From contig NZ_CP053452.2 in NCBI RefSeq assembly GCF_013128195.2, forward strand, positions 4,402,001-4,466,000: 64,000 nucleotides of DNA, given 5' to 3'. This document shows, in pieces, positions 31,856 through 41,897 of the stretch. The position numbers and the translations under genes were made by a program. The DNA is from Frigoriglobus tundricola (GTDB lineage: Bacteria; Planctomycetota; Planctomycetia; Gemmatales; Gemmataceae). Each line of letters opens with the position of its first letter. Position 1 is the stretch's first letter. The notes below the pieces were generated by a model, which had not been told where the DNA came from, made no database searches, and saw nothing but the letters and a program-made list of their open reading frames with translations.

Positions 31856-32701
31856 ATGTTGAACGTGAGTCGCCTGGTCGGCACGCACGACGTGCTGCTC
31901 GTCACCCTCGACACGCTCCGGTACGACGTGGCCGCCCGGCTCCACGCGGGCGGGCGCACCCCGTTCTTATCGGCCGTCCTGCCGGACGGCGGGTGGGAAC
32001 GGCGGCACACGCCGGGCAGCTTCACGTTCGCCGCGCACGCCGCCTTCTTCGCCGGGTTCCTCCCCACGCCCGCCGCACCGGGCCGCCACCCGCGTCCGTT
32101 CGCGCTCCGGTTCCCCGGCAGCGAAACGACCGCGCCGGAAACGGCCGTCTTTGATGCGCCCGATATTGTCGCGGGCTTCCGGGGCCGCGGCTATCACACG
32201 CTCTGCGTCGGCGGGGTCGGGTTCTTCAACAAGCTCACGCCGCTGGGCGGCGTGCTGCCGGGACTGTTCGACGAGAGCTACTGGGCGCCGGAACTCGGCG
32301 TCACCGATCCGCGCTCGACCGAAAACCAGGTGCGCCTCCTGCTCGGGCGCGTCGCCGAACACCCGCCACTGCGGCGGGTGTTCGCGTTCCTCAACGTGTC
32401 CGCCGTTCACCAGCCGAACCGCTTCTACCTGCCCGGGGCCGCGGACGATACCATCGAGTCGCACGCGGCGGCGCTCGAGTACGCGGACGCGCACCTCGGC
32501 CGGCTGTTCGCGGGGCTGCGCACGCGCGGGCCGTGGCTGGTCGTCATCTGTTCGGACCACGGCACCGCGTACGGCGAGGACGGGTACACCGGGCACCGTC
32601 TGGCACACCCCTCTGTGTGGAACGTGCCCTATGCTGAATTTGTCCTGAACCATTCCACGGACGCGCCGACGGAGCCGGTCGAGAAACGGGAGAACGAATG
32701 A
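31856..32701 (+). CDS. STM4013-like hydrolase (alkaline phosphatase/sulfatase fold)
   Basis: 281 residues from the ATG at 31856; an earlier in-frame ATG at 31820 adds 12 residues without family similarity. LLVTLDTLRYDVAARL carries the first metal Asp, GSFTFAAHAAFFAGF the presumed Thr/Ser nucleophile region, and VVICSDHGTAYGEDGYTGHR the Asp-His and distal His of the alkaline phosphatase superfamily. It is cytoplasmic (no signal peptide). The stop overlaps the next ATG (ATGA), so it is coupled to the radical SAM gene. The STM4013 label rests on remembered cluster content; substrate unknown. Confidence 0.8.
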   Translation: MLNVSRLVGTHDVLLVTLDTLRYDVAARLHAGGRTPFLSAVLPDGGWERRHTPGSFTFAAHAAFFAGFLPTPAAPGRHPRPFALRFPGSETTAPETAVFDAPDIVAGFRGRGYHTLCVGGVGFFNKLTPLGGVLPGLFDESYWAPELGVTDPRSTENQVRLLLGRVAEHPPLRRVFAFLNVSAVHQPNRFYLPGAADDTIESHAAALEYADAHLGRLFAGLRTRGPWLVVICSDHGTAYGEDGYTGHRLAHPSVWNVPYAEFVLNHSTDAPTEPVEKRENE

Positions 32702-34146
32702 CCGCGACCGAGCCCCACCCGGTGCTACGCGGCAGCCCGTACCGGGCCTACGTGTACGCCTATCCGCACAAAACCGCGTACCGATCCTTCGCCCCGCGTG
32801 CGCTGCGTGACGTGTGGGCCGGTGACCCGCGCGACGCACTGTTCCTGTACGTTCACGTGCCGTTCTGCACCATGCGGTGCGGGTTCTGTAACCTGTTCAC
32901 CACCGCCAACCCGAAGCCGGATCTCGTCACCTTCTATCTGGACGCCCTGCGCCGACAGGCCGAAGCCGTGCGGGAAGCGCTGCCGGACGCGCGGTTCACT
33001 CAGATGGCGATCGGCGGCGGCACCCCGACGTACCTGAGCGAATCGGAACTGGCCGAGCTATTCGACATCGTCGCGAGCGTGACGGGCGCCGGTGCGGACG
33101 CGACCCCCGCCGGCGTGGAGGTGTCGCCGGACACGCTCACGCCGGGGAAAGTGGCGCTACTCGGGGCGCGCGGAGTGGACCGCGTGAGCATCGGGGTGCA
33201 GTCGTTCATCGAAGCGGAGGCCGCGAACTCCGGCCGACCGCAATCGCGCACCGACGTGGACGCCGCGCTGACGCTGCTCGCGGGGGCGGGCTTCGGTACA
33301 GTCAACATCGACCTCATCTACGGGTTGCCCGGCCAGACGGTCGAAACGTGGCTGTACTCGCTCCGCGCCGCGCTCCGCTATGAGCCCGAGGAACTGTACC
33401 TGTACCCGCTGTACGTCCGCCCGCTGACCGCACTGGGCCAGTCGCACAAGGAGTGGGACGACACCCGGCTCGCGTGCTACCGCGAGGCCCGCGACGTCCT
33501 GCTCGCCGCGGGCTACGAGCAGGTGTCCATGCGGATGTTCCGAACGCGGAACGCGGAACGCGGAACGCGGAGTGAAAACCCAGAATCAGCGCGGAATGCG
33601 GAGCGCGGAACGCGGAGTGAAAGCCGGGAGCCTGCGTCTTTCATTCCGCGTTCCGCGTTCCGCGCTCCGCCCTTGAGGTATTGCTGCCAGGACGACGGAA
33701 TGGTCGGGCTGGGCTGCGGCGCGCGGTCGTACACGCGGAGTTTGCATTACGCGCTCGACTACGCCGTCCGGCCGAAGAGTGTGAAGGGCATCATCGCCGA
33801 TTACCTCGCGCGGACCCGCGCCGAACTGGCGACCGCGGACCACGGGTTCGCCCTCGACGACGGCGAACGGCGCCGGCGCTACCTGCTCCAGTCGGTTCTG
33901 AACGTCGAAGGTCTGGACGTGGCCCGGTACGTCGCGCGGTTCGGCTGCGACCCGGCCGCCGATTTCCCCGATCTGCACGTGTTCGAGGAGGCGGGACTGG
34001 TGGTGCTCGAACGCGTACCACGAGAGGGAACCACCCACCGAACGTGGCGCCCGACGCCGCTCGGGCTGGAGCGCTCCGACGCGCTCGGTCCGTGGTTCAT
34101 CTCGGACCGCGTGCGCACCCTTATGGCGGGGTACGAAGCGAAATGA
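32698..34146 (+). CDS. STM4012-like radical SAM protein (HemW-related)
   Basis: 482 residues. The [4Fe-4S] motif CTMRCGFC is at residues 57-64, followed by the SAM-binding MAIGGGTPTYLSESE and a HemW-like core (RVSIGVQSFIE, NIDLIYGLPGQTVETW, YPLYVRPLTALGQS). The C-terminal helical domain ends in HRTWRPTPLGLERSD. Residues about 282-325 (repeated NAERGTRSE, then FIPRSAFRAP) are encoded by an inserted palindromic repeat, just before YCCQDDGMVGLGCGARSYT. Start and stop overlap both neighbours. Probably a radical enzyme of unknown reaction rather than a heme chaperone. Confidence 0.85.
   Translation: MTATEPHPVLRGSPYRAYVYAYPHKTAYRSFAPRALRDVWAGDPRDALFLYVHVPFCTMRCGFCNLFTTANPKPDLVTFYLDALRRQAEAVREALPDARFTQMAIGGGTPTYLSESELAELFDIVASVTGAGADATPAGVEVSPDTLTPGKVALLGARGVDRVSIGVQSFIEAEAANSGRPQSRTDVDAALTLLAGAGFGTVNIDLIYGLPGQTVETWLYSLRAALRYEPEELYLYPLYVRPLTALGQSHKEWDDTRLACYREARDVLLAAGYEQVSMRMFRTRNAERGTRSENPESARNAERGTRSESREPASFIPRSAFRAPPLRYCCQDDGMVGLGCGARSYTRSLHYALDYAVRPKSVKGIIADYLARTRAELATADHGFALDDGERRRRYLLQSVLNVEGLDVARYVARFGCDPAADFPDLHVFEEAGLVVLERVPREGTTHRTWRPTPLGLERSDALGPWFISDRVRTLMAGYEAK
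33541..33675. repeat. In-frame palindromic repeat inside the STM4012-like gene
   Basis: Arms 33591-33623 and 33638-33670 are inverted with about four or five mismatches in 33; upstream (33541-33575) are tandem GAACGCG units. The insertion keeps the reading frame and adds about 45 residues. It belongs to the same family as the intergenic copy at 29717-29810. Confidence 0.8.
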
Positions 34147-35195
34147 ACCTGTCGATTTTGTACCGCGGGCCGCTGTCGAGTTGCAACTACGGGTGCGACT
34201 ACTGCCCGTTCGCGAAGCACACCGAAACGGCCGAGGAGCTCGCCCACGACCGCGCCTGTCTGGAGCGATTCGTCGCGTGGGCGGGCACGCGCGGGACCGC
34301 CTCACTCGGGGTGCTGTTCACACCCTGGGGCGAGGCACTGGTCCGCAAGTGGTACCAGTCCGCGCTCGCGGCCCTCACGCGGATGCCGCACGTCACCAAG
34401 GCCGCGATCCAGACGAACCTCTCGTGCAAGCTCGACTGGGTGGAGGAGTGCGACAAGGCGAAGCTCGCGCTGTGGTGTACGTTTCACCCGTCCGAAACCA
34501 CACGCGAACGGTTCCTGGCGAAGTGTCGCGAACTGCTCGACCGCGGGGTGCGGTTCAGCGTCGGCGTGGTGGGCTTGAAGGAACACTTCGCGGAGATCGA
34601 GGCGCTGCGCCGCGAACTGCCGTCGGACGTGTACCTGTGGGTGAACGCGTACAAGCGCGGGCGAGGCAAAGAACCCACCCCCAGCCCCTCGGTTCGCTCC
34701 CCGGCCCTGTCAGCGGAGCTTCTCGCGGGCCGGGGGAAGGGAGGGGAGCAAGCCCTCCGGATCTCTACCGCATCAGGAGGGCTCCAGGAGGCTCCGCGCG
34801 CGTTCACCCCCCTCCCTTTAGGGAGGGGGGCTGGGGGGGTGGGTTCTTTGGGGCGCGGTCTTCTTTACTATACCCCCGAAATGGTCGCAGACCTCACGCG
34901 CATCGACCCGCTGTTCCCGGTGAACGACACGTACCACGCGAGCCGGGGCGAGGCGTGTCGGGCGGGGCAAAGCGTCATCTCGGTCGATGGCGACGGCACC
35001 GTGCGGCGGTGCCACTTCATCAAGGAGCCGATCGGCAACATCTACGCCGCGGACTTCGACGCGTGCCTGCGCGAGCGCCCGTGTACCAACGACACCTGCG
35101 GCTGCCACATCGGCTACGTCCACCTCGACCGGCTCAAGTTGTACGACACGTTCGGGGACGGCGTGCTGGAACGAATCCCACTCGGCTACCGGTGA
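34143..35195 (+). CDS. STM4011-like radical SAM protein
   Basis: 350 residues; the ATG at 34143 overlaps the previous stop. Cluster-binding CNYGCDYC lies at residues 14-21, almost at the N-terminus. The C-terminal third has a Cys-rich set (GEACRAGQSV, VRRCHFIKEP, RPCTNDTCGCHIGYVH) like a SPASM/twitch auxiliary cluster site. About 55 residues in the middle (SVRSPALSAELLAGRGKGG to LPLGRGAGGVG) come from an inserted palindromic repeat. Ends LERIPLGYR, 13 bases before the first LRR gene. Reaction unknown. Confidence 0.85.
   Translation: MNLSILYRGPLSSCNYGCDYCPFAKHTETAEELAHDRACLERFVAWAGTRGTASLGVLFTPWGEALVRKWYQSALAALTRMPHVTKAAIQTNLSCKLDWVEECDKAKLALWCTFHPSETTRERFLAKCRELLDRGVRFSVGVVGLKEHFAEIEALRRELPSDVYLWVNAYKRGRGKEPTPSPSVRSPALSAELLAGRGKGGEQALRISTASGGLQEAPRAFTPLPLGRGAGGVGSLGRGLLYYTPEMVADLTRIDPLFPVNDTYHASRGEACRAGQSVISVDGDGTVRRCHFIKEPIGNIYAADFDACLRERPCTNDTCGCHIGYVHLDRLKLYDTFGDGVLERIPLGYR
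34668..34849. repeat. In-frame palindromic repeat inside the STM4011-like gene
   Basis: Outer arms 34668-34688 and 34827-34849 are inverted copies differing by a two-base bulge (AAAGAACCCACCCCC and complement). The roughly 180-base unit is a multiple of three and stays open, giving LPLGRGAGGVG. Confidence 0.75.
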
Positions 35196-35208
35196 AACGA
35201 GGGCGATC

Positions 35209-36444
35209 ATGCGCGACGTGTTCGAGCGAGCGATCATCGAGAACCCGGACGACGTGGCCAGTTACTCGGCCTACGCCGACTGGCTCCAGGAACAGGGCGA
35301 CCCGCGGGGCGAGTTCATCGCGGTGCAACTCGCCCTCGAAGACGAATCGCGCCCAAAGGAGGCACGCGAGGCGCTGAAGGCGCGGGAGACGGAATTGCTC
35401 GCCGAGTACGAACGCGAGTGGCTGGGGGAACTGGCGCAGTTCGTGTTGGACGCGGAACCGGTCTACCGCGACATTCCGCGAATCGAAGCCGAGTTCACTC
35501 GCGGCTGGCTGACCGGTCTGGAATGTCGCTCACTTTCGGTTAACGAGGCCCGCGCGCTCGCACGCACCCCGGAAGGCAAGATGCTGCGCCGGTTGCTCGT
35601 TCACGGCGCCGCGTACGAGACGTCGGGCGACGCACCGGCGCGCGGCAGCGACTCGTGCTACGCACCCGGCCCCGACGTGCCGGAGAACATCGACCAGTAC
35701 GACGGGCCGTCGCTCTACGCCCTCACTCACGTGCCGCATTTGGCCGGTGTGCGCGTCTTCCGGTACGGCGACGGCCCGACCGTTCCGGGCGACGACGGAG
35801 AGCGACACGGGCCGTGTCACACGAGCGGGGCGTTCGTCCACGGAGTCGTCGCACGGATGCCGCAGTTAGAAGAACTGTACCTGTACGCCCACAGTATGGA
35901 GCCGGCCGCGCTCTTTGCTCTACCGCTGTCACGGCTCCGGATTCTGCGCGTCGATCACGAAATGTCCTACCCACTCGACGTTCTGGCCGCGAACTCGTTG
36001 CTCGGCAACCTCACGCACATCCTCTGCCACCCACACGCACAACGACCGGAGGACCCGCACGCTTACATCCGCCTCGACCAACTCCGCGCCCTCTGCCGGT
36101 CGCCCCATCTGCCCCGCCTCACCTACCTGCAGCTCTGCCTGACAGACTTTGGTGACGAGGGAGCCGAGGAGGTCATCGCTTCGGGGGTTCTAAAACGTCT
36201 CCGCGTACTCGACCTGAGTTACGGGTGTATGACCGACAGCGGGGCCATCGCTCTCGCCGCGTGCTCCGACCTCAAGAACCTCTCTCTGCTCGACCTCACG
36301 ATGAACAGTCTGACCGAAGTGGGGATTGCCGCGCTCACTGCGACCGGCGTGCCGTTTAAAGCGGACCAGCAGCACGCCGAACATCCCAGCCGGATCGACG
36401 AACACGGCTACCTCGAATACCTCTCATACGGCGACATCGAATAA
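35209..36444 (+). CDS. A1: TIGR02996-LRR protein of the STM4011-4015 cluster
   Basis: 411 residues. The N-terminus (MRDVFERAIIENPDDVAS, YADWLQEQGDPRGEFIAVQ) is a TIGR02996 repeat-companion domain. Leucine-rich repeats fill the rest (LTYLQLCLTDFGDEGAEEVI, LKRLRVLDLSYGCMTDSGAI, LKNLSLLDLTMNSLTEVGI). The C-terminus QQHAE plus YLSYGDIE is shared with its paralogues. No signal peptide. GAGGG precedes the ATG. LRR proteins in this position correspond to STM4015 in other clusters, by recollection. Likely a protein-binding partner or substrate of the enzymes. Confidence 0.8.
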   Translation: MRDVFERAIIENPDDVASYSAYADWLQEQGDPRGEFIAVQLALEDESRPKEAREALKARETELLAEYEREWLGELAQFVLDAEPVYRDIPRIEAEFTRGWLTGLECRSLSVNEARALARTPEGKMLRRLLVHGAAYETSGDAPARGSDSCYAPGPDVPENIDQYDGPSLYALTHVPHLAGVRVFRYGDGPTVPGDDGERHGPCHTSGAFVHGVVARMPQLEELYLYAHSMEPAALFALPLSRLRILRVDHEMSYPLDVLAANSLLGNLTHILCHPHAQRPEDPHAYIRLDQLRALCRSPHLPRLTYLQLCLTDFGDEGAEEVIASGVLKRLRVLDLSYGCMTDSGAIALAACSDLKNLSLLDLTMNSLTEVGIAALTATGVPFKADQQHAEHPSRIDEHGYLEYLSYGDIE

Positions 36445-36471
36445 TCCCTCACCCTTTCGGAAACCGTCCCC

Positions 36472-37920
36472 ATGCGGACCTTTCAATTCAGCGACGCGAA
36501 GAGCCACAAGTTCTGGAACATCGACGTCCAGGGGACCTCCTTCACGGTGACCTACGGCAAGATCGGCACCACGGGACAGACCCAGACGAAGACCTTCGCC
36601 TCGGACGCGGCGGCACAGGCCGAAGCGGACAAGCTGGTCAAGGAGAAGACCAAGAAGGGCTACGTCGAGACGACGCCGAAGGCGACCGTCTCCGACGCCG
36701 AGGCGTTCGAGACCGCGCTCCGCGCCCACCCGCACGACCTCGCCGGCTGGTCCGCGTTCGCCGACTTCCTCGCGGAACGCGACGACCCGCGCGGCGAGTT
36801 CATGCAGACACAGATCGCGCTCGAAGACGAATCGCGCCCGAAGAAAGAACGCGATACGCTGAAGAAGAAGGAGGCCGCGCTCCTCAAGACGCACGCCGCG
36901 ACCTGGCTCGGGGCGCTCGCGCCGTTCCTGCTGAATCAGAAGGCGCCGAAACGCGCCTGGCGGCCGGAGACGATCAAATTCGCCTTCCGTCGCGGCTGGC
37001 TCGCGGACCTCGAGGTTCCGAACCTGGGCGTCGAGTTCGTTCGCGCGCTGAACGGCGCACCGGAGGCGAAGTTCCTTCAGCGGTTGCACGTCCACACCAA
37101 CGCCTACGAGTACGAGGAGGGTGCCCCCAACATTCCGGAATACGCGGACGGCACCTACAAACCCGGCCCCGATCTACCCAAGGGCGTCAGTCATTACGAA
37201 CTGGCCATGCACCTGCTGGCCCGGTGCCCGCACTTCGAGTCCGTGTGTACGCTCCACCTTGGGAACCCGCTCGCGGACGGGTTCGACGAGTCCGACCAGT
37301 GCCACACGGAGGGCGAACTCGCCCACCACTACGTCAAGCAGATGCCACACATCGAGGAACTGCGCTTGCTCGCGCACAACGTGGACTCGAACAAGCTGTT
37401 CGTGCTGCCGATGCCGCACCTGCGGGTGCTTCAGGTGTTTCACGCGAGCAAGTACCCGGTGGACAAACTCGCGGCCAACCCGTCGCTCGGTAACCTCACG
37501 CACCTGCTCCTCCAACCGCACGCACCGGACGAATCGAAGCCGTACATCCGCCTGCGTGAGCTACGCGCGATCTGCCGGGCCACGAACGTGCCCAAGCTCA
37601 CGCACCTCGCCCTACGCTACACGGACTTCGGCGACGAGGGCGTGCGCGAGATCATCGACTCGGGCATCCTGAAGCGGCTCAAACTCCTCGACCTGCGCGG
37701 CGGGTGCGTGACGGACGACGGCGCGCGGCTCCTCGCGGCGGCCCCGGACGCGAAGAACCTGGAGCGGTTGAATCTCGACACGAATGCCCTGTCCTCGATC
37801 GGCATCAAAGAGCTGAAGTCCGCCGGCATCAAGGCGAGTACAGAGGCCCAGCACAACGAGGTGCCGCCGTTCGATGAGGACCAAATGCCCGAATACATGT
37901 TCGAGGCCGACATCGAATGA
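36472..37920 (+). CDS. B1: WGR-TIGR02996-LRR protein
   Basis: 482 residues. Residues 1-70 are a WGR domain ([36 protein letters not shown]), known from poly(ADP-ribose) polymerases and MolR-type proteins where it contacts nucleic acid or protein. A TIGR02996 domain follows (about 82-140, [19 protein letters not shown]), then LRRs ([39 protein letters not shown]). The tail has QHNE and ends YMFEADIE. 27 bases after A1. Confidence 0.82.
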
Positions 37921-38027
37921 CCCCGCCGCACACGGCCCCGTACGCAAACCCCGAGGTCCGGAGCGTACCGCCCCGCACCGGTTGAGGCGAACCCCGCTCG
38001 GCTACTGGTAACTCGTGGAGGACGATC

Positions 38028-39284
38028 ATGCGCGACGCGTTCGAGCGAGCGATCATTGAGAACCCGGACGACCGGGCCAGTTACTCGGCCTACGCCGACT
38101 GGCTCCAGGAGCAAGGTGACCCGCGGGGCGAGTTCATCGCAGTGCAACTCGCCCTCGAAGACGAGTCGCGCCCGAAGGACGCACGCGACGCACTCAAGGC
38201 GCGGGAGGCCGAGTTGCTCGCCGAGTACGAACGCGAGTGGTTGGGGGAGCTGGCGCCGTTCGTGTTCGAGGAGGGTACGGAACGACGGACTCCGGCCGGT
38301 TACGTGGAGGATTACTCCACGGGTACGAAGACGCTGTGGGAACGCGGCGTTCTGTCGGGATTGATCATCGACCGCATCAGCACCGCCCTCGCTCACGCGC
38401 TCGTCGATTCCCCGGCCACCCGGTTCGTCCGGGAACTCCACCTCTACGGCACCATGAGCGGGTATCAAGGCAGAATTGCGGAGGAACTGCAGCGAGTCGA
38501 AACTCCCAAGGGCGTCAGCGATCATTCCGAATTGTTTGAATTGATCGGCTCGACATTACTCGCCAACCTTCGAGTCTTCCGATTCGGCGACAAGGAGGCC
38601 GAGCCACCCGAGAACGGCTGGTGCGATTGCCACACCTTTCTTCCCGGCCTGGAGCACGTCATTGCGAGCGCGCCGCGCATTGAAGAATTGCACCTCCTGT
38701 GCAACGAGTATGATTTAGATGCCGTCTTCGTGTTACCCAACTTGTCGAAGCTTCGCGTCCTCCGCGCCTATCACGTCGGTGAGTCGCGTAGTCAGAAGCC
38801 ACGCTACGAATACGGACTCGATAAGCTCGCTTCAAACCCGACGTTCGCCAACCTGACGCACCTTCAGTTTCACCCACACTGGGCCGAACAGGGCGATGGT
38901 GGCGGCGGGGACGAATCCTTCATTCCGCTCGCGCAAGTCCAAGCTCTGCTCCGTTCGCCGCACCTGAGGAAGCTCACGCACCTGCAACTCCGACTATCGG
39001 ACATGGGCGACGACGGCATCCGCGCGTTCATAGCGTCCGGCATCCTGAAGCAACTCCAGTGGCTCGACCTGCGGCACGGGTGCGTCACCGATGAGGGCGC
39101 GGCTCTACTCGCCGCCTGCCCCGACGCGAAGCGCCTCGAGCGCATCGACCTGTCCCGCAACGCGGTCACGGCGGACGGTCTGGCCGCCCTCCGCGCCGCC
39201 GGCGTCAACGCGGTCGCGAACAACCCTCTCACCCCGACCGAACTCGGATCGCGCGAGTACCTCCGCGAAGGCGATTTCGAATAA
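38028..39284 (+). CDS. A2: second TIGR02996-LRR protein
   Basis: 418 residues. The first about 79 residues differ from A1 at only about six positions, while the following about 150 are strongly diverged; the LRR pattern returns at the end (LTHLQLRLSDMGDDGIRAFI, LQWLDLRHGCVTDEGA). It ends EYLREGDFE but has lost the QHAE motif. GGAGGA eight bases upstream is a strong ribosome site. The 107-base upstream gap keeps a vestige of the STM4011 3' end (CTCGGCTACTGGT), evidence for tandem duplication. Confidence 0.8.
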   Translation: MRDAFERAIIENPDDRASYSAYADWLQEQGDPRGEFIAVQLALEDESRPKDARDALKAREAELLAEYEREWLGELAPFVFEEGTERRTPAGYVEDYSTGTKTLWERGVLSGLIIDRISTALAHALVDSPATRFVRELHLYGTMSGYQGRIAEELQRVETPKGVSDHSELFELIGSTLLANLRVFRFGDKEAEPPENGWCDCHTFLPGLEHVIASAPRIEELHLLCNEYDLDAVFVLPNLSKLRVLRAYHVGESRSQKPRYEYGLDKLASNPTFANLTHLQFHPHWAEQGDGGGGDESFIPLAQVQALLRSPHLRKLTHLQLRLSDMGDDGIRAFIASGILKQLQWLDLRHGCVTDEGAALLAACPDAKRLERIDLSRNAVTADGLAALRAAGVNAVANNPLTPTELGSREYLREGDFE

Positions 39285-39318
39285 CTCACACTCGCATTTC
39301 CCGCCAGGGCCGGCCAAC

Positions 39319-40755
39319 ATGCGGACGTTTCAGTTCAGCGACGCGAAGAGCCACAAGTTCTGGAACGTCGCCGTGCGCGGGGACTCGGTGACTGTCACGT
39401 TCGGCAAGATCGGCGCCGCGGGGAAGTCCCGGACGAAGAGCTGCGCGAGTTCCGACGCCGCACAGGCCCACGCGAACAAACTCATCAGAGAGAAGACCGG
39501 GAAGGGCTACGTCGAGACCACGCCGACGTCGAAGGTCACCTCGGACGCGGAAGCGTTCGAGAAGGCGCTCCGCGCCGACCCGCACGACCTCGCCGGCTGG
39601 TGCGCGTACGCCGACTACCTCGTCGAACAGGGCGACCCGCGCGGCGAGTTCACGCAAACGCAAATCGCCCTCGAAGACGAAGCGCGACCGAAGAAGGAAC
39701 GCGACGCGCTTCGGGCGAAAGAAGCCGCGGTTCTGAAGGAACACGAGGCGGAGTGGGTCGGGGACTGGCCGGCACTGTTCCCCGCACCAACCTCCACCGA
39801 GGGCCGCGGTCAGATCAACCACACCGGCGGGCGGAAATACGAGTTCAAGCGCGGCGTCCTGTCCACGGTCCATTTCGGCGAACTGACCGTCGCCGCGGCC
39901 CGCGCCTTCGTCCGGGCGCCCCAAACGCGGTTCGTCCGCGAACTCTTCATCGGCTACCACGCCCACAGAGAGGAATTCGACCGGGGGTCGGACATCCCTC
40001 CGGAGGTGACCACGGGCTACGACCAGCCCGCAGATCACGTCCTGCTCCGATGGCCGTACATGAGGCAGATCCGTCGGTTCCAGTACGGCTGGACCGCGGA
40101 CGAAGCGTACGGCAGCTTTTGCCACTTTCAGTGCCACCTGTCCGGCGCCCGCGTTTTCGACTTCGTCAAGCAGATGCCCAATGTCGAAGAGGTTTTGGTC
40201 TTCGCACACCTCCGGGACGCGACCAAACTCGTCGCCCTGCCGATGCCGAACCTCCGCGTACTCCAGCTCTACCACGGCCGGAGCTATCCGCTGGACCGAC
40301 TGGCACAGAATCCGTCGGGTACGAAGCTGACCCATCTGCTCTGCCACCCGCACGCGCTCGATCACGACCGGGCTTACATTCGGCTCCCGGAACTGCGCGC
40401 GATCTGCCGCTCCGAACACCTCACGAGCCTCACGCACCTCCGCCTCCGCCTCACGGATTTCGGTGACGCCGGTATCCGTGAGATCGTATCGTCCGGCATC
40501 CTGACGCGGCTGAAGGTACTCGATCTGCGACACGGGAGCGTCACCGGCGCCGGGGCCAAGACGCTCGCGAACTGCCCGGAGGTCAAGAACCTGGAGAAAC
40601 TCGACCTGTCGCGAAACGGGTTGACCGGTGTCGGGAAAGCGGCGCTCCTGGCGACGCGGGTGCCCGTCGAGTTGGACCACCAGCACGCCGAAATCGGTGA
40701 CCAGGACGCATACGGCGACCGCCCGCGGTACCTCTACGAAGGCGATTACGAGTGA
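39319..40755 (+). CDS. B2: second WGR-TIGR02996-LRR protein
   Basis: 478 residues from the ATG at 39319. WGR domain [19 protein letters not shown] and VTFGKIGAAGKSRTKS, TIGR02996 domain (YADYLVEQGDPRGEFTQTQ), then LRRs (LTHLRLRLTDFGDAGIREIV, LKVLDLRHGSVTGAGAKTLA). Tail QHAE and YLYEGDYE. Closely related to B1 at the N-terminus. Its stop overlaps the GTG of the ATP-grasp gene (GTGA), tying the LRR genes into the operon. Confidence 0.82.
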   Translation: MRTFQFSDAKSHKFWNVAVRGDSVTVTFGKIGAAGKSRTKSCASSDAAQAHANKLIREKTGKGYVETTPTSKVTSDAEAFEKALRADPHDLAGWCAYADYLVEQGDPRGEFTQTQIALEDEARPKKERDALRAKEAAVLKEHEAEWVGDWPALFPAPTSTEGRGQINHTGGRKYEFKRGVLSTVHFGELTVAAARAFVRAPQTRFVRELFIGYHAHREEFDRGSDIPPEVTTGYDQPADHVLLRWPYMRQIRRFQYGWTADEAYGSFCHFQCHLSGARVFDFVKQMPNVEEVLVFAHLRDATKLVALPMPNLRVLQLYHGRSYPLDRLAQNPSGTKLTHLLCHPHALDHDRAYIRLPELRAICRSEHLTSLTHLRLRLTDFGDAGIREIVSSGILTRLKVLDLRHGSVTGAGAKTLANCPEVKNLEKLDLSRNGLTGVGKAALLATRVPVELDHQHAEIGDQDAYGDRPRYLYEGDYE

Positions 40756-41897
40756 ACCCGCCGCGTTACGTGCTGATCGCGAACCCCGGCACGAAGCGGT
40801 GCGAGACGTACCGCGCCGAACTGCTCGCGTACTGGTCCGGGCGCGGCGCGGCTGTTGATGTGGAGGTCGTGCCGTGGGCGGACGTGGCGGCGCGTGACGG
40901 TAATCTCGATGGTCTGCCGGCGTTCGACCGGCCCGCGGTCGTGCGGATGGAATCGCCGGGCAAGGATGACACCGCGACACGCCTCCTGCTCGAAGCCGGC
41001 GCCCGCGATGACCCGGACGAACCGCCCCGCGACTGGCGCGGACTCGATCTCCCGAAAGGGTTACTCGTGCGGCCGGGGCTGTTGTACCGCGGGTTCCGCC
41101 GGGTTCTTCACGGCCTGCGGAAGTCGTTCGACGCCCGCCCGCACCTGCACCCGACCGCGTGCCCACTGGCCGTCGCTGAGATGTTCGACAAAACGGCGGC
41201 CGCCGGGAGGATCGCCGCGGCCAGCGTGCCGGTGCCCGAAATGCTCGGCACGTGCGACGCGCCCGAGGCGCTTCACGACGCGGCCGCGAGCCGCGCGTGG
41301 CCGAACGCCTACGTCAAGCTCAACACCGGTTCCTCGGCCACGGGCATCGTCGTCCTTCACCCCAATCACAACGGGCGACCGGCGTTCGGGATCACCACGC
41401 TTGCGGAGATCGACGGCGCGTTCTACAACTCGCGGCTCGTCCGCCGCGTAACGGGGGCGGACCTGGACGCCGCCGTGCAGTTCGTTCTGAACGAAGGCGC
41501 GATCGTCCAGCGCGGCATACCGATGGCGCAAGCGGACGGCCAGAACTTCGACGTCCGCGTGGTGACCGTGTACGGAAAGCCCGCGGCGACGATCTTCCGC
41601 CTCAGCCCGCACCCGATGACCAACCTGCACCTGGGCGGGCGCCGCGGGGACTACGACCGGTGCCGGGCCGCGATCCCGACGCGCGACTGGCTGGACGCAC
41701 TCGACCATTGTGCCGACGCGGCCGCGTGCTTCGATTCCGCCATCACCGGCGTGGACCTGCTGTTCGAGCGCGGCTTCCGCCGGCACTACGTCCTGGAAGT
41801 GAACGCGTTCGGCGACTTCTTCCCCGGCTGGGTGGACCCAAATGGCCGTTCCATCCACGCGCGGGAAATCGCGGCCACGGCCGAACGGCTGGCGTGA
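40752..41897 (+). CDS. STM4014-like ATP-grasp protein
   Basis: 381 residues, GTG start overlapping the B2 stop. Resembles glutathione-synthetase/RimK-type ATP-grasp enzymes: YVKLNTGSSATGIVVL gives the ATP-binding Lys/Gly region, and HYVLEVNAFGDFFPGW the Glu-x-Asn metal site. Such enzymes join a carboxylate to an amine through an acyl phosphate, often adding residues to a peptide or protein end. In STM4011-4015 clusters the gene normally sits beside the radical SAM genes; here four LRR genes separate them. Substrate unknown. Confidence 0.8.
   Translation: MNPPRYVLIANPGTKRCETYRAELLAYWSGRGAAVDVEVVPWADVAARDGNLDGLPAFDRPAVVRMESPGKDDTATRLLLEAGARDDPDEPPRDWRGLDLPKGLLVRPGLLYRGFRRVLHGLRKSFDARPHLHPTACPLAVAEMFDKTAAAGRIAAASVPVPEMLGTCDAPEALHDAAASRAWPNAYVKLNTGSSATGIVVLHPNHNGRPAFGITTLAEIDGAFYNSRLVRRVTGADLDAAVQFVLNEGAIVQRGIPMAQADGQNFDVRVVTVYGKPAATIFRLSPHPMTNLHLGGRRGDYDRCRAAIPTRDWLDALDHCADAAACFDSAITGVDLLFERGFRRHYVLEVNAFGDFFPGWVDPNGRSIHAREIAATAERLA

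Follow-up and report, generated by a model that had tools for sequence, protein, structure and literature searches.

The window, the whole 64 kb stretch of DNA analysed here from the 9.86 Mb genome of Frigoriglobus tundricola, contains a cluster of eight genes, all on the forward strand (31856-41897; Table 1). They encode an alkaline-phosphatase-fold hydrolase, two radical S-adenosylmethionine (SAM) enzymes, an ATP-grasp ligase and four leucine-rich repeat (LRR) proteins. This is the gene content described in the original prediction, and domain searches bore out that two of the four LRR proteins carry a WGR domain. The tight packing through ATGA or GTGA overlaps or short gaps held only in part: three junctions are 4-base overlaps (ATGA, ATGA and GTGA), and the gaps of 13, 27, 107 and 34 bases include one, of 107 bases, that is not short. 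In hidden Markov model (HMM) searches all four enzymes scored above the NCBI curated cut-offs, confirming the earlier assignment to the STM4011-STM4014 families. All four LRR proteins end in Glu, the last residue before the stop codon. The STM4011-4015 set is already named in NCBI annotation and several LRR copies are ordinary for it; new here is the near-universal terminal Glu of the cluster LRR proteins, together with a matching ligase.

Table 1. Genes and features of the cluster, in window coordinates. aa, amino acids; pLDDT, predicted local distance difference test score; cut-offs are those curated for each model.
Feature	Position	Strand	Basis or remark
STM4013/SEN3800-type hydrolase, alkaline-phosphatase/sulfatase fold, 281 aa	31856..32701	+	NF038075, 404.7 bits (cut-off 250)
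STM4012-type radical SAM protein, HemN-like, 482 aa	32698..34146	+	NF006067, 567.5 bits (cut-off 380)
In-frame palindromic repeat insert, variable loop of STM4012 gene	33546..33676	+	HMM match split there
STM4011-type radical SAM protein, C-terminal Cys cluster, 350 aa	34143..35195	+	NF038073, 395.4 bits (cut-off 200)
In-frame dispersed-repeat insert in STM4011 gene	34664..34866	+	69 genome matches including itself
LRR protein A, TIGR02996 + LRR, 411 aa	35209..36444	+	Domain searches
Tail of LRR protein A, EYLSYGDIE	36415..36441	+	
WGR-LRR protein B, WGR + TIGR02996 + LRR, 482 aa	36472..37920	+	Domain searches
Tail of WGR-LRR protein B, EYMFEADIE	37891..37917	+	
LRR protein C, TIGR02996 + LRR, 418 aa	38028..39284	+	Domain searches
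Tail of LRR protein C, EYLREGDFE	39255..39281	+	
WGR-LRR protein D, WGR + TIGR02996 + LRR, 478 aa	39319..40755	+	Domain searches
Tail of WGR-LRR protein D, RYLYEGDYE	40726..40752	+	Low pLDDT
STM4014-type ATP-grasp ligase, 381 aa, GTG start	40752..41897	+	NF038074, 250.2 bits (cut-off 175)

We found the terminal Glu in 136 of the 143 LRR open reading frames (ORFs) lying within 6 kb of a cluster enzyme, a count made after removing two low-scoring and two overlapping ORFs and three duplicates. In a control of 38 other LRR/TIGR02996 ORFs, drawn from 31 regions of the window's genome, only 2 ended in Glu; this set leaves out the orphan gene L057 described below, and some of its ORFs may not be genes. 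The residue is thus not a general trait of the LRR proteins of this genome. Nor does gene overlap at the following start codon impose it: where no 4-base overlap is possible, 65 of 70 LRR ORFs have the final Glu all the same. The preceding residues are of two types. In most phyla the proteins end in R-Y-[VIC]-A-V-[SGA]-E (R-Y-x-A-V-x-E; the canonical tail), whereas those of the window's lineage mostly end in [YF]-L-x-x-G-D-x-E (the Gemmata tail). Where an aromatic residue stood at -6 and Glu came last (122 ORFs, a few of them with Gemmata tails), the -6 residue was Tyr in 110 and the -3 residue Val in 100. An alignment of 68 full-length canonical proteins (the STM4015-class subset of the 143 ORFs, 270-360 aa and above 300 bits) showed an invariant terminal Glu preceded by a variable acidic linker, whose last seven kept columns ranked 222-299 of 304 in variability. 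A divergent Salmonella plasmid member ends in NAMYTE, keeping the final Glu and not the rest. The model of window protein D (mean pLDDT 89.5) was confident save for two loops and the last ~18 residues; the last two blocks scored 57 and 56, and the tail is predicted to be loose.

Conserved C-terminal residues are typical of localisation, stability or degradation signals too, and the tail could be one of these, with the enzymes acting on an unrelated substrate. We think this very improbable. It leaves unexplained why 36 of the 38 other LRR/TIGR02996 ORFs lack the terminal Glu, and does not account for the correspondence between tail type and ligase clade reported below.

Of the 19 genomes of the genus, 7 had matches to a DNA pattern for the Gemmata tail (11 matches in all), while a reversed control pattern matched in 2. 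Two matches (G402 and G410:C130) were in short non-LRR ORFs. The other nine fell in six genomes, namely five with STM4011 plus G409, an 82 percent complete assembly in which one contig carries both STM4014 and the tail-bearing gene. Eight of the 13 same-genus genomes without STM4011 were searched for STM4014; seven were without it and the eighth was G409. Genome G416 has the enzymes and no exact match to the Gemmata tail pattern.

The STM4014-type protein is an ATP-grasp ligase whose predicted model (pLDDT 95.6) is structurally nearest to ArgX/LysX and RimK. Residues K147, K189, D335, E349 and N351, which we take to be ATP-grasp residues, were kept in 44 of 44 aligned sequences. The nearest folds were ArgX with LysW (3vpb, Z 23.4), LysX (3vpd, 23.0), RimK (7qys, 22.5) and RimK with RpsF (5zk6, 22.4). 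We treated Z differences below 1 as ties, so that ArgX, LysX and RimK are tied within about 1 Z; Foldseek also ranked 3vpb first. By profile search against the PDB the best sequence match was LysX, although weak (E about 4e-5), and the protein scored 15.3 bits against the curated LysX model TIGR02144, below its cut-off of 275.6. Up to E 0.01 the only NCBIfam matches besides the STM4014 model were MptN and LysX_arch. LysX links to the C-terminal Glu of LysW, itself a Glu-ending protein (PMC10433800), and RimK adds Glu to the C-terminus of RpsF (PMC4741518).

RimK being among the nearest folds, STM4014 might likewise add one or more Glu residues to the LRR tail, with the radical SAM enzymes and the hydrolase acting elsewhere. 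This is improbable, in our judgement, as 79 of the 110 loci with any cluster enzyme hold all four even with contig-truncated loci included, which makes a joint pathway likelier.

We then compared tail type with enzyme phylogeny, using 25 chosen loci with STM4014 for one tree and 25 chosen loci with STM4011-4013 for another. In the STM4014 tree the nine ligases partnered by Gemmata tails formed one clade against the 16 partnered by canonical tails (support 100/99.8), and tail type tracked the ligase clade in all 25 rows. In the combined STM4011, STM4012 and STM4013 tree, two loci with canonical tails (L072 and L075) were nested among the Gemmata-tail loci, and constraining the Gemmata-tail rows to one group was rejected (approximately unbiased (AU) test, p = 0.0028). 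Because tail type follows the STM4014 clade but is mixed in the tree of the other three enzymes, one lineage seems, from these sequences, to have replaced its LRR genes along with its ligase whilst keeping the other three enzymes. The pairing of one STM4011-4013 lineage with both tail types fits action of these enzymes on an attached group rather than on the tail sequence.

Tail-bearing LRR genes and STM4014 also occur together away from the other enzymes. In G465, on a single contig, a tail-bearing LRR gene lies ~1.2 kb from STM4014 near C1:5.56 Mb, and the pair is ~0.9 Mb from STM4011 (C1:4667340). In the drafts G118 and G399 the LRR gene adjoins STM4014 on a different contig from STM4011. 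The window's own genome has an orphan WGR-LRR gene away from the cluster (L057, C1:5775659-5777134) with the tail QYLREGDFE, whose product groups with LRR protein C.

The window LRR proteins had been proposed to correspond to STM4015. They proved to be relatives and not members, scoring 57.3, 54.5, 49.9 and 44.8 bits against NF038076 (cut-off 275), with matches confined to model positions 166-275 of 290. All four passed the TIGR02996 cut-off of 29.05 (57.0, 37.8, 59.9 and 41.7 bits). TIGR02996 alone says little, because the genome has 81 matches to it, 78 of them above cut-off. WGR passed in proteins B and D only, and also stands ahead of related LRR regions in Myxococcota (L105, L122). The LRR tree included spurious ORFs from L216 and L223 and was used for well-supported close pairs only. 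Genome G410 has a parallel four-LRR array, three members of which fall beside window proteins B, C and D in the tree, leaving A without a clear counterpart.

Three side observations concern the LRR genes. Close to their starts, the LRR A and C genes share 175 bases (35214-35388 and 38033-38207) at 92 percent identity whilst the remainder has diverged, which suggests gene conversion. Window proteins A-D have in common a Cys-His pair ahead of the last repeats, near the position of the canonical STM4015 E-I-S-W; several relatives do not have this pair. The LRR protein of L111, a record titled Comamonas sp. KCTC 72670, groups with one from Myxococcus vastator (100/100), reflecting either transfer or a wrong record title.

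The cluster was found in at least ten phyla: Planctomycetota, Myxococcota, Cyanobacteriota, Chloroflexota, Acidobacteriota, Armatimonadota, Actinomycetota, Deinococcota, Bacillota and Pseudomonadota. Of 392 genomes sampled from Planctomycetota, 13 had STM4013 above cut-off; STM4011 exceeded its own in 14 of the 95 family genomes and 6 of the 19 genus genomes (own genome included). The named-genome scan covered the best 80 of at least 481 relatives, a few of them repeating earlier loci, and under-sampled distant clusters; further loci were taken from plasmids. Glu-ending LRR ORFs were tabulated over the 79 complete loci, leaving out repeat loci L093, L094, L103 and L117 and the own-genome control loci. 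There were none in 1 locus, one in 52, two in 17, three in 2, four in 5 and five in 2. With at least two in 26 of the 79, the original prediction's view that one LRR gene is normal was too strong, and the four-LRR set of the window is not unique. Among the complete loci, 42 of 79 carry a DUF6745 protein and 41 a ~98-aa small protein (L072, L089, L090, L134 and others). The DUF6745 C-terminus is also conserved, 43 of 44 ending in Thr, often as Y-x-P-x-x-[EQ]-T, although a DUF6745 protein on L241 ends in Ala. Domain search found no DUF6745 among the eight window proteins.

These counts bear on whether the LRR tail serves as a LysW-like carrier, on which the radical SAM enzymes would elaborate an attached small molecule before its release as a metabolite. 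The top-ranked fold, ArgX bound to LysW, agrees with this despite its tie with LysX and RimK, as does the Glu at the end of LysW (PMC10433800). However, a locus can have as many as five Glu-ending LRR copies, with varied front domains, and there are unlinked copies as well, which is more than a carrier needs; the LRR proteins of the window are 411-482 aa long; and NCBIfam and Pfam domain scans found no product-releasing peptidase family among the eight window proteins. A carrier role is therefore possible but unlikely. Because copy number varies, the front domains (WGR, TIGR02996) differ and some genes are unlinked, the LRR proteins are likelier to be an end product.

In STM4012 the CxxxCxxC motif C57/C61/C64 stands where the original prediction placed it and is invariant in 13 of 13 aligned proteins. 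The predicted STM4011 motif C14/C18/C21 (CxxxCxxC) and Cys-rich C-terminus were likewise recovered, the motif and Cys 272, 290, 314, 319 and 321 being invariant in 19 of 19 rows. STM4013 also matched Pfam Sulfatase (34.3, cut-off 25), and its residues D19, T57, D234, H235 and H247, presumably metal or nucleophile residues, were invariant in 12 of 12 rows. Both radical SAM genes carry in-frame inserts of dispersed repeats, which, like the TIGR02996 domains, the original prediction had not mentioned. The STM4012 insert, an inverted repeat with 72 genome matches including itself, is absent or different in the other 12 aligned rows, and relatives hold different inserts in the same loop. The STM4011 insert is missing from the other 18 aligned rows; in G404 and G416 the STM4011 HMM match is split at the same model position. 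An STM4013-family hydrolase also occurs on a Streptomyces albidoflavus plasmid (L240) without annotated LRR or STM4014 genes; nearby are a radical SAM protein, a thymidylate kinase, and NUDIX and lasso-peptide B2 genes. This is a second context for the STM4013-type hydrolase.

The eight invariant Cys of STM4011, and a weak match of its C-terminal part to SkfB (E 0.014), an enzyme of ribosomally synthesised and post-translationally modified peptides (RiPPs), would suit a tail that acts as a RiPP-like recognition signal, with the radical SAM enzymes modifying residues within the LRR body. Canonical proteins do have some non-scaffold body residues that are nearly or fully invariant, among them the Ser of S-W-I (68/68) and the Arg of R-G (67/68). 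These are not kept in Gemmata-type proteins, however, and only Leu and Gly columns stay invariant when both types are aligned, while one radical SAM lineage pairs with both LRR types. We consider such docking rather improbable.

Taken together, our results are best read as modification of the protein tail, on balance the probable explanation: STM4014 would couple an amine to the LRR tail Glu, and the radical SAM enzymes and hydrolase would remodel the adduct. The original prediction had offered the LRR proteins as scaffold, sensor or substrate; substrate is the likely role, sharpened here to attachment at the C-terminal Glu, a step which sequence comparison and the predicted ligase fold suggest. 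We infer the following order of events. Each LRR protein would present a flexible Glu-ending C-terminal tail, and STM4014 would activate a carboxylate of the tail Glu and couple an amine-bearing compound, perhaps an amino acid. STM4011 and STM4012 would then alter the attached group, and STM4013 might remove phosphate or sulfate, or cleave an ester, at some step. The modified LRR proteins would stay as the end product rather than serve as carrier of one released metabolite.

Several observations weigh against this explanation. ATP-grasp folds are common: STM4014 also matched glutathione synthetase (Z 21.4), PPIP5K kinases (21) and D-Ala-D-Ala ligases (19-20). The terminal Glu is absent from seven of the 143 LRR ORFs (L122, 1 of 4; L132, 2 of 7; L112, 1 of 3; L102, 1 of 3; L070, 1 of 5; and L114, its only one), the tails in G404 and G416 and one in G410 retain little pattern beyond the last residues, and kinship among rows means that the counts are not independent. 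The match of tail and ligase amounts to one replacement event, L072 and L075 being sisters (95/92); the rows were chosen, and the pattern was noticed in identity values before the AU test. LRR and STM4014 genes are mostly neighbours, and plain linkage could carry both. Between the unlinked pair of G465 lies a second LRR/TIGR02996 ORF, outside the set of 143, which ends in Ser. G421 (69 percent complete) has a tail-bearing LRR gene (HWLVEGDWE) and no STM4014 above cut-off, and G398 (86 percent complete) has STM4011, with neither a tail-bearing LRR gene nor STM4014 found.

The four enzymes of the window cluster belong to the STM4011-STM4015 set (NF038073, NF006067, NF038075, NF038074, NF038076), but its LRR proteins score under the STM4015 cut-off, have TIGR02996 domains (with WGR as well in two) and mostly Gemmata tails, and its ligase belongs to a separate clade. 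With the LysW/LysX-ArgX carrier system the cluster shares a Glu-ending protein as candidate substrate and the top-ranked ATP-grasp fold, but the candidate is a large LRR protein, none of the four window tails has the EDWGE carrier ending, and the partners are radical SAM enzymes and a hydrolase. The likeness to glutamylation of RpsF (ribosomal protein S6) by RimK lies in the ATP-grasp fold and action on a protein C-terminus; here an LRR protein would be the substrate, and the STM4014 gene has radical SAM partners. The Bacteroides WGR-LRR protein 2ra8, solved and annotated as uncharacterized, is matched strongly by profile along the LRR region (E 1.3e-78), and protein D matches it in the WGR domain as well. 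The candidate substrates of the window, at 411-482 aa, are also unlike the short leader/core precursors of RiPPs. We rejected a catalogued defence system, as PADLOC gave only partial low matches (WGR_XIII, PDC-M51A).

As the original prediction had it, no function for STM4011-4015 was found in the literature searched on these families and on LRR, radical SAM, ATP-grasp, WGR and RiPP combinations. In the available parts of PMC3844500 and PMC2784778, STM4013 or STM4015 is mentioned merely as a locus in a table, and a text term search of PMC4431377, on the ATP-grasp protein CDC123, returned no mention of LRR, WGR or radical.

The conserved tail Glu provides a single residue and a single ligase on which the pathway becomes testable, and the two tail types form a built-in specificity test. 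More tentatively, and with some doubt, folded LRR proteins may be encoded anchors: the ligase would hang a building block on the Glu, from which the two radical SAM enzymes would make a new prosthetic group or metabolite, in at least ten phyla, and at least one lineage would have swapped the anchor and ligase half whilst keeping the remodelling half. If tail modification is correct, it would supply a function open to testing for an enzyme set hitherto without one, and would mean protein-anchored radical chemistry across the ten phyla listed.

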